Source: a virus
Virus record (IMG/VR): IMGVR_UViG_3300017925_000001
Location: 45,725 to 109,724 of that record
DNA length: 64,000 nt
Direction: 5' to 3' (one strand)
A program made the translations under genes and the position numbers. This document shows, in pieces, positions 9,852 to 59,355 of this stretch (position 1 is the first letter of the stretch; the number at the start of each line of letters is the position of its first letter). The notes below the pieces were generated by a model. It was not told where the DNA came from and searched no databases. It was given only the letters and a program-made list of their open reading frames with translations.

Positions 9852-10119
9852 TAAACAACTGGGTAAGTAAGTTGCCCCCTCAGTCAGTAATGATTGAGCG
9901 CAGAACCAAGAGAATTCGGTGAAACGCCCTCTGGGCCAATACCGAGCCGAGCCGCTAATGCGGAAGGTGTAACGACTATCCCGCAAGGGAGTAGGGAACA
10001 GTGTTCCCGAAGTACTTGGGGTCCTGAAAAGGATCATGATATAGTCTGGTCTTACTGGCAACAGTAAGAGTTCGAATGGAAACGATTCGAGCGTAACATA
10101 TAAACGACAGCTTCTTTGG
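9852..10119 (+). ncRNA. group I intron without internal ORF
   Basis: Complete group I core: P3 CCAAG (9906)/CTTGG (10015); P4 TCGGT (9916)/ACCGA (9941); P5 GCCC/GGGC; P6 CCGC/GCGG; P7 GACTAT (9974)/ATAGTC (10041) with the usual AACGACTA and GATATAGTC context; P7.1 CCC-GCAA-GGG; P7.2 GGGAAC/GTTCCC; P8 TCCT-GAAA-AGGA; P9 CTTACTG-GCAA-CAGTAAG; and a second P9-region hairpin at 10072-10090. P7.1/P7.2 suggest subgroup IA. P1 is probably ACCT (ending 9851) with GGGT (9861-9864). The 3-prime end is a G at 10118-10119 (10110 is possible). Splicing fuses exon 1 to the tail gene. Confidence 0.88.
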
Positions 10120-47731: not shown

Positions 47732-47885
47732 TACCTTCCTCCTTTAATCTCATACCAGCCTTGAGGGCTGTCTCCGTTAAAAGCTCAGCCCGCGCAAGAA
47801 TGTGAGGCCCATACATGTGATTAGAAAAGAATTGCTGCCTCAAGTCCAAGGTCATGTCTTCTATGCGCTCCTCAATACTCTTCAT
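47682..47885 (-). CDS. small helical hypothetical protein
   Basis: 67 aa from ATG 47885, overlapping the nucleotidyltransferase stop. Helical (MTLDLRQQFFSNHMYGPHIL). It ends inside the next gene, a 50-base overlap. Not recognised. Confidence 0.5.
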   Translation of the reverse strand: MKSIEERIEDMTLDLRQQFFSNHMYGPHILARAELLTETALKAGMRLKEEGNVRGEETSGMDIPKKA

Positions 47886-48856
47886 CAAAAGATCCTATCA
47901 ATGATTTCTACGAGATAGGCAGCATCAACCTTCTCAGGATCTTTCTCCTTCAAACGATCCAGAAGTTGAATAAAATAAGCTGTGTCCACGCCAGTCAATT
48001 GATCTTCCAGCACAGAAATGTTTGTTAGATCAAGTTTGCTGATCTGCATAGCCATCTTCAGGATCTGTCCTGCATTGACTCGCCATCCACGCTCAATGAA
48101 TTTTCTCAAACGTACGACTGAGCATATGGGGTATTTGCTGCCTATATAACGTAGTTCTTTGGAGAGTAAGGCCTCCAAGGCTCTAGGCCGTAGAACAAGG
48201 TTGTTATCCCAGCTCGACCAAAAGTTGGTGCAGTGTACGAAGTCGTAATTGCCATGGATCTCATCAGGCTCTCCATAGAAGCGAAGGATGATTTGAATTT
48301 TTCCACTCAGCGTAATGGCATTGCTTGTTAAAAACCTCGGAATATACTTCTCATTTTTTTCTTCTTGGCTAAGTACTGTCTGCTCAATTTCTTGATAAGT
48401 GTCTTCTATTTGAGCAGGATCATTAAGCACTTCACCAACATATACAGCAGCGCTTTCATCGGGTTGTCCTTCGAAATACTGATAAGGCTTTTCTGTGCCC
48501 TCTTTACTTGCTATGCCTGCTGATTTAACTACAATTTTCACACGCACGCCATCGTCATACACCTTCATTGGTGTAGGTATTCCTTTGCTCTTGTGGTGTT
48601 GCTCAAATTTACTCAGGTAATACTCGGCTACAGACTTGGCTAGGTCATGATTGCGAAGATAGACATCGAAATCATTGACCTCTTCACCAAGTAGCATGGA
48701 AGCAATGGAACCTCCAGTGACAATCACCCCTGTCTTGAGCTTTTCTCGTAGCGTTAGGTCTTCAACACTGTCCAACCAGAGATTGATCTTACGATGGATG
48801 CGACCTTTGATACTCTTCGCTTTCATCCCGTGCTTTACTGCTGGCACTTCATTCAT
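47885..48856 (-). CDS. nucleotidyltransferase, CCA/polymerase-beta-like
   Basis: 323 aa. VIVTGGSIASMLLGEEVNDFDVYLRN has the G-G-(S)-x9-D-x-D palm motif of polymerase-beta-type nucleotidyltransferases, as in tRNA-nucleotidyl and antibiotic-type enzymes. A later NYDFVHCTNFWSSWDN adds a possible third Asp. The C-terminus is helical with RLRKFIERGWRVNAGQIL. It could repair tRNA or tmRNA 3-prime ends or modify a toxin/target; a link to the tmRNA and RtcB is speculation. Confidence 0.7.
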   Translation of the reverse strand: MNEVPAVKHGMKAKSIKGRIHRKINLWLDSVEDLTLREKLKTGVIVTGGSIASMLLGEEVNDFDVYLRNHDLAKSVAEYYLSKFEQHHKSKGIPTPMKVYDDGVRVKIVVKSAGIASKEGTEKPYQYFEGQPDESAAVYVGEVLNDPAQIEDTYQEIEQTVLSQEEKNEKYIPRFLTSNAITLSGKIQIILRFYGEPDEIHGNYDFVHCTNFWSSWDNNLVLRPRALEALLSKELRYIGSKYPICSVVRLRKFIERGWRVNAGQILKMAMQISKLDLTNISVLEDQLTGVDTAYFIQLLDRLKEKDPEKVDAAYLVEIIDRIF

Positions 48857-50848: not shown

Positions 50849-50885
50849 GCGGGGGACGCAAGCCTTATAATCGGCCCTCCCCCGC
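50849..50885 (-). terminator. hairpin at the end of the tmRNA gene
   Basis: GCGGGGGA/TCCCCCGC, an 8-bp GC-rich stem with a 21-nt interior, followed on the - strand by TTCATTTCATTTT. It marks the 3-prime boundary of the tmRNA coding piece, as terminator or processing structure. The T-run is broken, so termination may be partial; the next ribosome site follows directly. Confidence 0.6.
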
Positions 50886-51320
50886 TGCTGTGCCTGTCTG
50901 AGTCAACGCCGGTGATCAAGTCACCCTGTTCAGTCTCAGTAGTATCGTCGTGTGAGCACGGCACTGTATCTGCCCAACCTCTAGAAATCGGTAGGAGAGC
51001 CCTTGCGGGCTCCCCATCCTATGGCTAGCGCCCGCAGGCAGCTGCCATGACCATCGGCTTTTCAGTCGCGGTTGTTTGTTACGTGTCTAGAGTACGTGTG
51101 CCACGTCAGCACGACGCGCAAGTTGCAACAGCATACATGCCGTTCGAAGCCTGTTCATCCCCCAACACGGCTCACTATTCGGAAGCCGTCTTGGTGGAGA
51201 TGCCCGGAATCGAACCGGGGTGACGCCATGTTGATGCCAACCTTCTACGCGTGTTTCTCCGTATTGCTACGGAATACCTAGGGGCGCACGGCATTCGCTA
51301 TGCACCCTCCACCACCTAGC
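50886..51320 (-). ncRNA. ssrA: circularly permuted tmRNA gene
   Basis: Read on the - strand, the 3-prime acceptor piece comes first: T-arm CCCGGTTCGATTCCGGG (51203-51219), acceptor strand CATCTCC, A and CCA ending at 51192. A 29-nt spacer with a 6-bp hairpin (ACGGCT/AGCCGT) follows, then the 5-prime piece begins GGGGATGAACAGG with CTTCGAACGG. The acceptor halves pair over 7 bp with the G3-U70 wobble that AlaRS reads. Upstream and downstream strands form a long P2 helix (CATGT/ACATG, ATGC/GCAT, CGCG/CGCG). The tag ORF (51025-51069) and a P5-like stem with GCAA loop follow. Rescues stalled ribosomes in the host. Outer ends approximate. Confidence 0.82.
51025..51069 (-). other. proposed tmRNA tag reading frame
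   Basis: Starting at an Ala resume codon (GCG 51069) after AACAACC, the frame encodes ATEKPMVMAAACGR and ends at TAG. The internal MAAA resembles usual tag ends, but the peptide finishes CGR instead of the common ALAA/VAA that ClpXP recognises. The frame choice is inferred from position between the D-arm region and the P5-like stem. Confidence 0.45.
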
Positions 51321-57804: not shown

Positions 57805-57992
57805 CGGACTTTCTCCCAGTGCCCAATACCCGGCACTTCTTCACCGCCCATAGTGCTAGGTTCTAGTGTCCAGACCCACTTCTGTTTCTTGCGCCCTAGC
57901 TTCTTTGCAATCATCCATTCCTTGTGGGCTTGATAGTTCTTGTCATTGTTCTCCTTGCGACCACGACCACGCTTGACTTGTTCAGTTGCCAT
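57801..57992 (-). CDS. small basic hypothetical protein
   Basis: 63 aa from ATG 57992, overlapping the RtcB stop. Basic N-terminus (QVKRGRGRKENND) and aromatic core (KKQKWVWTLEPSTM). Could bind nucleic acid. Not recognised. Confidence 0.6.
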   Translation of the reverse strand: MATEQVKRGRGRKENNDKNYQAHKEWMIAKKLGRKKQKWVWTLEPSTMGGEEVPGIGHWEKVR

Positions 57993-59218
57993 TATGAAGC
58001 TCCTTTCACACAGAGAAATTGCTTCAGTGTAGCTACAGGCGTCACGAGATCCGACTGCGCAGCCATCACATCTTCTATGGGCTTGTACGCAGCTGGTGTC
58101 TCGTCTAATACTGAGGCGTCCTTGCGACATTCCACGCCTTCAGTTGCGGCAACGTGATCTGCAATCGTGAATCGCCGCTCCGCTTCCTTGCGACCCATAG
58201 CACGTCCAGCGCCGTGAGAGCAGGAGCAAAAGCTATCGCGGTTTCCAAGGCCGCGCACGATGTACGTTCTCGCACCCATGGAACCTGGGATGATACCCCA
58301 GTCACCATCTTGGGCGCGCACCGCACCCTTGCGCGTTACCATGACATTCTTGCCAAAGTGCTTTTCCCAGTTCACGTAATTGTGATGGCAGTTAATCACG
58401 TTGCCAGGAGTCACACTTTCAACATGCAGTGCATCAGCTACAGCTTTCAACACTGCTTGCAGCATCAGTTCGCGGTTCTTCAGAGCAAACCTCTGCGCAA
58501 AGCGTACGGCCTGAGTGTATTCGACAAACGCGTTGGTACCTTCAGGCAGATAGGCGAGGTCTTTGTTGGGCAGTGGCACATAATACTGCTCACACTTCTT
58601 TTGCGCCACCTCGGTGAAGTAGCTGCCAATCTTGTTGCCAAGGCCGCGTGACCCCGAGTGCAATACGATCCATACCCAACCATGCTCATCCTCGGACAGC
58701 TCGATGAAGTGATTGCCGGTGCCGAGGGTTCCCAGCTGCCGGAAAGTATTCTTAGATTGCGCGCCGGGATTCTTGGTGCAGATCTCCTCATACTCAGTAG
58801 CGAAGTCTGCATCCCAGACAGCTTGAATGCGCTCGGGCACATTACCCCAAGCTCCGATGTCCCGAGGGCCACCATTGTCTGAGCGACCATTGGGCACAGC
58901 GCGCTCGATGAACTCGCGGAGGGCCTTCAGGTCTACAAACTCAGAGCGCTTGAAAGGAAGTGGGGCCGCAAGCATTCCGCAACCGATGTCCACACCTACA
59001 GCGGCGGGAACGATAGCTCCAAGCGTAGGCAACACTGTGCCAATCGCTGAGCCATTACCCCAGTGCGCATCAGGCATCGAGGCTACCCACTGCCATACAA
59101 AGGGCAGCTGGGCTACAGCCTTTAACTGCTCGATCACTTTGTCCTCGAAGTACACACCTTTCTTCCAGGCCTTGATGATCTTTCCGTTGCCAGCGTCAAT
59201 CACTTCGTAGTTGCTCAT
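57992..59218 (-). CDS. rtcB: RNA-splicing ligase RtcB
   Basis: 408 aa from ATG 59218 (TAATG overlap). All hallmark blocks are present: MPDAHWGNGSAIGTV, VGVDIGCGM (metal-binding Cys), LGTGNHFIEL, LHSGSRGLG, INCHHNY, GSMGARTYIVRG and SFCSCSHGAGRAM, whose His is the site of GMP attachment. RtcB joins RNA 2,3-cyclic phosphate or 3-phosphate ends to 5-OH ends. In a phage it probably repairs tRNA or tmRNA cut by host nucleases. Confidence 0.95.
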   Translation of the reverse strand: MSNYEVIDAGNGKIIKAWKKGVYFEDKVIEQLKAVAQLPFVWQWVASMPDAHWGNGSAIGTVLPTLGAIVPAAVGVDIGCGMLAAPLPFKRSEFVDLKALREFIERAVPNGRSDNGGPRDIGAWGNVPERIQAVWDADFATEYEEICTKNPGAQSKNTFRQLGTLGTGNHFIELSEDEHGWVWIVLHSGSRGLGNKIGSYFTEVAQKKCEQYYVPLPNKDLAYLPEGTNAFVEYTQAVRFAQRFALKNRELMLQAVLKAVADALHVESVTPGNVINCHHNYVNWEKHFGKNVMVTRKGAVRAQDGDWGIIPGSMGARTYIVRGLGNRDSFCSCSHGAGRAMGRKEAERRFTIADHVAATEGVECRKDASVLDETPAAYKPIEDVMAAQSDLVTPVATLKQFLCVKGAS

Positions 59219-59355
59219 TACCACCCCCATTTATCGAACTCTTTTTGGATTTTTGGTACAGGTGTGCGTTTGATACCAATGAAGACGGCGAGGGCCAGCA
59301 GCATAACACCGGCCCATGCCATGAAACCAAAGATGATAAGCAAGGTCCAGTTCAC
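59218..59355 (-). CDS. 45-aa membrane protein
   Basis: Starts at GTG 59355 after a near-perfect GGAGGTGACCGA. One hydrophobic helix (TLLIIFGFMAWAGVMLLALA) and a short basic/aromatic tail. Overlaps the start of RtcB. Unknown role. Confidence 0.65.
   Translation of the reverse strand: MNWTLLIIFGFMAWAGVMLLALAVFIGIKRTPVPKIQKEFDKWGW

Follow-up and report, generated by a model that had tools for sequence, protein, structure and literature searches.

A circularly permuted tmRNA gene with an atypical tag end in a phage of a probable acidobacterial host

tmRNA is the bacterial molecule responsible for the release of stalled ribosomes. Two-piece forms of this RNA are already documented in phages: the permuted tmRNA of phage Melnitz was published in 2022 along with those of other marine phages, and a survey of 18,146 phage genomes recovered 133 unique tmRNA structures, 53 of which were two-piece (PMC9004378). 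A database dedicated to tmRNA contains 79 entries from phages and 11,946 permuted forms and distinguishes three main clades in bacteria (PMC11915505), and permuted tmRNAs were common in IMG/VR in one pattern search, among the matches listed. The novelty implied by our first-pass annotation, which treated a permuted tmRNA in a phage as noteworthy in itself, was therefore set too high. As phage two-piece tmRNAs are already published, interest here lies in the host group and the tag; a CCA-adding-like enzyme encoded 2.2 kb away and a leader whose sequence complements the 3′ end of the acceptor are also of interest.

The window (i.e. the whole 64,000-nt stretch of DNA analysed) belongs to a 109.7-kb virus record and encodes a circularly permuted tmRNA on its minus strand. 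Using cmscan on the whole window, the permuted model tmRNA_permuted (RF04321) returned a match at 51252-51034 covering model positions 1-213 of 213 (59.3 bits, gathering score 47; E value 5.8e-9 for the whole window), which, together with covariation among homologues, supports the initial identification of a phage-encoded circularly permuted tmRNA. RF04321 was the sole tmRNA model above its cut-off at this locus. The best clade-specific model, beta_tmRNA (RF01850; 51283-50994), reached 49.9 bits, below its cut-off of 84, and the standard tmRNA model (RF00023) reached 22.6 bits, below its cut-off of 47; alpha_tmRNA (RF01849) and cyano_tmRNA (RF01851) gave no match at the gathering threshold in the window, and neither was the best match of the clan. 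With RF04321 over its cut-off and the clade models under theirs, the gene represents a permuted tmRNA that falls short of the cut-off for each of the three bacterial subtypes that have a model. No tRNA match was reported at the tmRNA locus. ARAGORN, run on the window, also reported nothing there and was not relied on for this reason. The locus comprises the following features:

51314-50994, minus strand: permuted (two-piece) tmRNA gene
51306-51314, minus strand: leader nonamer UGGUGGAGG, complementary to the acceptor 3′ end
51282-51307, minus strand: leader hairpin GGGUGCA...UGCGCCC (from the sequence and a predicted fold)
51192-51252, minus strand: acceptor piece, consisting of the P2 5′ strand, T-arm, acceptor 3′ strand and CCA (RF04321 alignment, covariation)
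51219-51203, minus strand: T-arm, CCCGG-UUCGAUU-CCGGG
51202-51196, minus strand: acceptor 3′ strand, CAUCUCC
51195 and 51194-51192, minus strand: discriminator A and encoded CCA
51163-51191, minus strand: intervening 29-nt segment with its own hairpin (from the sequence; falls at the RF04321 spacer)
51189-51184 and 51172-51167, minus strand: spacer hairpin, ACGGCU/AGCCGU
50994-51162, minus strand: coding piece, consisting of the acceptor 5′ strand, D-loop-like GGCUUCGAAC, P2 3′ strand, pseudoknot, tag and 3′ hairpin (RF04321 and beta_tmRNA alignments)
51162-51156, minus strand: acceptor 5′ strand, GGGGAUG
51252-51248 with 51118-51114, minus strand: outer 5 bp of P2
51081-51112, minus strand: PK1 pseudoknot (read from the sequence)
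51025-51069, minus strand: tag frame ATEKPMVMAAACGR, stop UAG (translation; conserved with the relative L131)
50994-51015, minus strand: 3′ hairpin GGGGAGCCC-GCAA-GGGCUCUCC (aligns to the last beta_tmRNA hairpin)

Read along the minus strand, the acceptor piece is followed by the spacer and then by the coding piece. This is the order that had been proposed for the locus, with the acceptor piece and its CCA (ending at 51192) ahead of the 5′ piece (starting at 51162) and a hairpin-bearing spacer between them, which is exactly 29 nt long (51191-51163) and whose RNA would be expected to be cut out. GGGGAUG and CAUCUCC pair over 7 bp, with G51160-U51198 as the G3-U70 pair, and PK1, as read from the sequence, is formed by GUGC (51112-51109) with GCAC (51101-51098) and ACGUG (51106-51102) with CACGU (51085-51081). 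Based on the beta_tmRNA alignment and on L131, we took the coding piece to finish with the hairpin at 51015-50994. The extent first annotated, 50849-51320, holds except at its 3′ limit, which lies ~145 nt beyond the gene end near 50994. The stretch past the 3′ hairpin (50849-50993, minus strand) is itself structured and closes with another hairpin that resembles a terminator (GCGGGGG/CCCCCGC followed by T-rich sequence); it is not common to L131, where the tmRNA is directly followed by a gene.

Pairing was counted in eight phages (the window, L131, L169, Tunturi_3, Tunturi_4, L144, L031 and L145) for the acceptor stem, the T-stem and the outer five pairs of P2, with the pieces excised and joined by us. 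Every cell was paired (17 pairs in eight phages, 136/136), and 12 of the 17 pairs displayed compensatory change on both sides, a count matched by 0/500 shuffles and compared with ≤3 in slid controls. The 7-bp acceptor pairing with G3-U70 that had been claimed for the window is formed in all eight phages, with three of the seven pairs covarying, positions 4-6 variable and G3-U70 invariant. The claim that P2 is preserved likewise extends to all eight phages, in which five of five outer pairs form and five of five covary, although the outer P2 strands were picked from predicted duplexes and the P2 share of the count is therefore biased towards structure, a weakness from which the acceptor-stem and T-stem counts are free.

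The proteins of this region match phage contigs at 33-100 % identity. In L131, the nucleotidyltransferase and primase of which are 78 % and 77 % identical to those of the window, a permuted tmRNA occupies the same place, directly after the same upstream gene. A permuted tmRNA is also found near that gene in L127/G005 (primase 64 %), as is the tmRNA homologue of L169. The L131 gene (2069-2320) has a five-base T-loop, GGGUCGUACCC, and does not encode CCA; the same is seen in L133, the two contigs coming from different samples. The closest primases in annotated phages are those of Tunturi_3 (49 %) and Tunturi_4 (44 %), with the next best at 23 %; the best RecA matches are likewise Tunturi_3 and Tunturi_4, and the records of these two phages are the only ones with a match to the gene upstream of the tmRNA. 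Tunturiibacter belongs to the Acidobacteriota, and the proximity of all three proteins to those of Tunturiibacter phages suggests that the host of this virus is probably an acidobacterium. DNA similarity to phage records was limited to one weak match, Stenotrophomonas phage DLP_6, which itself carries an unannotated beta-type permuted tmRNA with the tag ANDDSFAPMAIAA (KU682439.2, ~102807-103150; L002 2933-3276). A further permuted tmRNA, with an ARAGORN tag identical to that of phage contig L114, was seen in Dyella sp. AtDHG13 (L153, NZ_QICJ01000013.1, 2210-2260, minus strand), on a contig that is perhaps a prophage. In a tree built on 88 short segments of tmRNA, the genes of the phages studied here were scattered over several positions, with very long branches; we claim no origin from it.

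Of the cultured Tunturiibacter phages, Tunturi_1, _3, _4 and _5 were examined. Permuted tmRNAs were detected in three of the four, Tunturi_1 having none, together with two small proteins of relevance:

PP885686, 88172-88396: Tunturi_3 permuted tmRNA, 63.3 bits
PP885687, 43532-43941: Tunturi_4 permuted tmRNA, 79.2 bits
PP885688, 157899-158195: permuted tmRNA of the jumbo phage Tunturi_5, 86.4 bits
PP885687, 43946-44293: Tunturi_4 small RF-1/GGQ-domain protein, upstream of the tmRNA match, from which the gene end is separated by a few bases
PP885686, 82469-82807: Tunturi_3 small RF-1/GGQ-domain protein

The tables of the Tunturi_3, _4 and _5 records hold no tmRNA feature at these positions, and the paper describing the phages makes no mention of tmRNA (PMC11924767). 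By protein kinship, Tunturi_3 and Tunturi_4 probably share a host group with the window, and the Tunturi_3 tmRNA has the P2 segments CGUAGAAGGUUGGC and GUUGCAACUUGCG in common with it. The Tunturi_3, _4 and _5 tags differ from that of the window in being long (33-34 aa) with an Ala-Ala end, and the Tunturi_4 spacer measures 154 nt as opposed to 29 nt. The RF-1/GGQ proteins of Tunturi_3 and Tunturi_4 could represent a second ribosome-rescue factor; a search of the window's genome returned no gene with an RF-1 domain. On the reverse strand of Tunturi_4 (L164), ~600 nt upstream of the RF-1-domain gene, lies a long, mostly non-coding stretch with no Rfam match, possibly an undescribed RNA. With three of the four examined isolates carrying a permuted tmRNA, function becomes testable in a plaque-forming system.

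A tag frame follows PK1, reading ATEKPMVMAAACGR in the window, with GCG51069 as the putative resume codon, and ATDKPKAMAAHA in L131. Over the first ten codons the two frames differ at nine nucleotides, distributed 0/2/7 over codon positions 1/2/3, a preponderance of third-position changes that, in this small sample, is the mark of a translated frame. An Ala-Ala end is usual for tmRNA tags, though not obligatory. The window tag ends in AAACGR, and beyond Ala-Ala or Ala-Ala-Ala there are two to three extra residues in the window (CGR), L131 (HA) and L169 (GV). When each different tag that ARAGORN gave for permuted tmRNAs of the retrieved loci is counted once, all but five end in Ala-Ala, a count to be read knowing that ARAGORN may favour tags of this kind; the L169 tag is one of the five. 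The permuted tmRNA of L189 (IMGVR_UViG_3300050821_003463) has a tag, ATTEKPKAFAAAA*, and a P2 segment similar to those of the window and differs in keeping the Ala-Ala end. The window primase has no match in the 94.5-kb L189 record, and in combination with the similar tag this makes the window's tag end look derived. ClpX recognises C-terminal Ala-Ala, and chains bearing tags that extend beyond it may be degraded poorly by ClpXP; the tags of the window, L131 and L169 may thus be weak degrons. If such non-degron tags are real, ribosome rescue and protein destruction would be separated in nature.

We consider it very probable that this phage-borne circularly permuted ssrA yields a two-piece tmRNA serving trans-translation during infection, with transcription, processing, charging and rescue activity inferred from the sequence. 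A single minus-strand precursor would carry the acceptor piece, spacer and coding piece, and processing enzymes of the host would excise the spacer, cutting behind the CCA (51192) and ahead of G51162 (RNase P), leaving two pieces joined through P2 and the 7 bp of the acceptor stem. The host's AlaRS would then charge the CCA end with alanine through G3-U70. SmpB was not detected in the window's genome or in eight related or leader-sharing records, so the tmRNA would depend on host SmpB for loading on stalled ribosomes. Translation would resume near GCG51069, add the tag peptide and stop at UAG, and the phage would probably gain by recovering ribosomes that stall on mRNAs cleaved or degraded in takeover. 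The modest model score, the ARAGORN miss, the dependence on host SmpB and the departure of the tag end from Ala-Ala are points against this explanation.

The tag end and the L131 gene could also be read as signs of decay, the gene having come from another phage or a bacterium and retaining its structure by inertia with its function partly lost. The shortened T-loop and unencoded CCA of L131 would fit such a history, as would tags without the usual Ala-Ala end in the window, L131 and L169 when that of L189 retains it. Nevertheless, we regard decay as improbable, given that the window keeps an intact T-loop, CCA and G3-U70 along with every pair tested and that the tag frame shared with L131 has been conserved through third-position changes.

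The leader adds a second unusual element to this RNA. In the window, it is complementary to the acceptor 3′ end through eight Watson-Crick pairs (UGGUGGAG/CUCCACCA) plus one G-U. UGGUGGAGG and the hairpin closely precede the acceptor piece in the window and in four close-leader relatives (L131, L144, L031 and L145). In L169 (~1062-1500), the leader is located 490 nt upstream of the acceptor piece, behind an insert with a small frame and a 10-bp inverted repeat (CAACATATCC/GGATATGTTG). The complementarity spans 7-9 nt across leader-bearing sequences, and other phage and bacterial permuted tmRNAs mostly have 3-6 nt of it. In predicted folds ending at the CCA, four of five sequences have their acceptor piece closed off by the leader, and as both strands are nearly invariant, this pairing has no support from covariation. 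No bacterial genome matched the leader in a scan with a strict pattern. A role as the Shine-Dalgarno sequence of a small frame was considered and rejected, as no start codon keeps a constant spacing across six sequences. We hypothesise that the leader acts as a clamp on the CCA end or pairs with host tmRNA. The full combination, in which the permuted tmRNA of this group of acidobacterial phages has been altered to rescue ribosomes without marking proteins for ClpXP and the conserved leader and hairpin clamp the CCA end, time its exposure or pair in trans with the CUCCACCA end of host tmRNA, is speculative and, taken as a whole, rather unlikely.

Complementarity to CUCCACCA, the usual tmRNA 3′ end, would also fit the RNA or its leader being a decoy or inhibitor that interferes with host tmRNA instead of rescuing ribosomes, and there is a precedent in the CDS-less tmRNA-like gene of mycobacteriophage DS6A, which is reported to inhibit endogenous tmRNA in E. 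coli (PMC11915505). However, a decoy needs neither a conserved tag frame nor a full tRNA-like domain, and the leader is missing next to the tmRNA gene in Tunturi_3, _4 and _5, making this explanation highly improbable. Apart from the silence of ARAGORN, nothing favours a chance or non-tmRNA feature such as a tRNA fragment or noise, a reading with virtually no probability that was already refuted by the E value and the covariation. The L131 homologue at the matching place also speaks against it, and the covariance search set beforehand as a possible refutation of the permuted tmRNA returned neither a standard tRNA nor noise and placed the permuted model above its cut-off.

Returning to trans-translation as the preferred function, two neighbouring genes deserve comment:

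47885-48856, minus strand: nucleotidyltransferase similar to poly(A) polymerases and to CCA-adding enzymes of class II (phrog_4400; homologues annotated as tRNA nucleotidyltransferase/PcnB)
57992-59230, minus strand: RtcB RNA ligase (Pfam PF01139, E value 2.7e-116)

The tmRNA had been described as lying beside these genes; both are present, although adjacency is loose, at 2.2 kb for the nucleotidyltransferase and 6.7 kb for RtcB. The predicted model of the nucleotidyltransferase has a weak fold match to CCA-adding enzymes, which is just suggestive given the low confidence of the model (pLDDT 57). It is a possible partner of the tmRNA, and a CCA-adding-like enzyme would fit L131, where the tmRNA gene does not encode CCA. 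RtcB is a gene of the same genome with a putative link to the tmRNA. Together with the GGQ/RF-1 proteins of Tunturi_3 and Tunturi_4, these two enzymes suggest phage investment in translation upkeep. Elsewhere in the window, a group I intron was detected on the plus strand (9855-10068; RF00028, 54.2 bits, cut-off 50).

Compared with the RF04321 family of Alphaproteobacteria, Betaproteobacteria and Cyanobacteria, the locus has the same gene order, tRNA-like domain, G3-U70, CCA, P2 and tag; it differs from the bacterial members in scoring below the clade-model cut-offs, in its CGR tag end and in its leader nonamer, which was not seen in the bacterial permuted tmRNAs checked. It is reminiscent of Melnitz in being a permuted ssrA carried by a phage. 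However, Melnitz has an OM43 host, an alphaproteobacterial-type ssrA and a glutamine riboswitch, whereas for the window the host is probably acidobacterial and the Rfam matches include no riboswitch. Permuted tmRNA recurs in phages of Acidobacteriota, a phylum previously without a report of it, extending the phage-borne two-piece tmRNA to the phages of this group.
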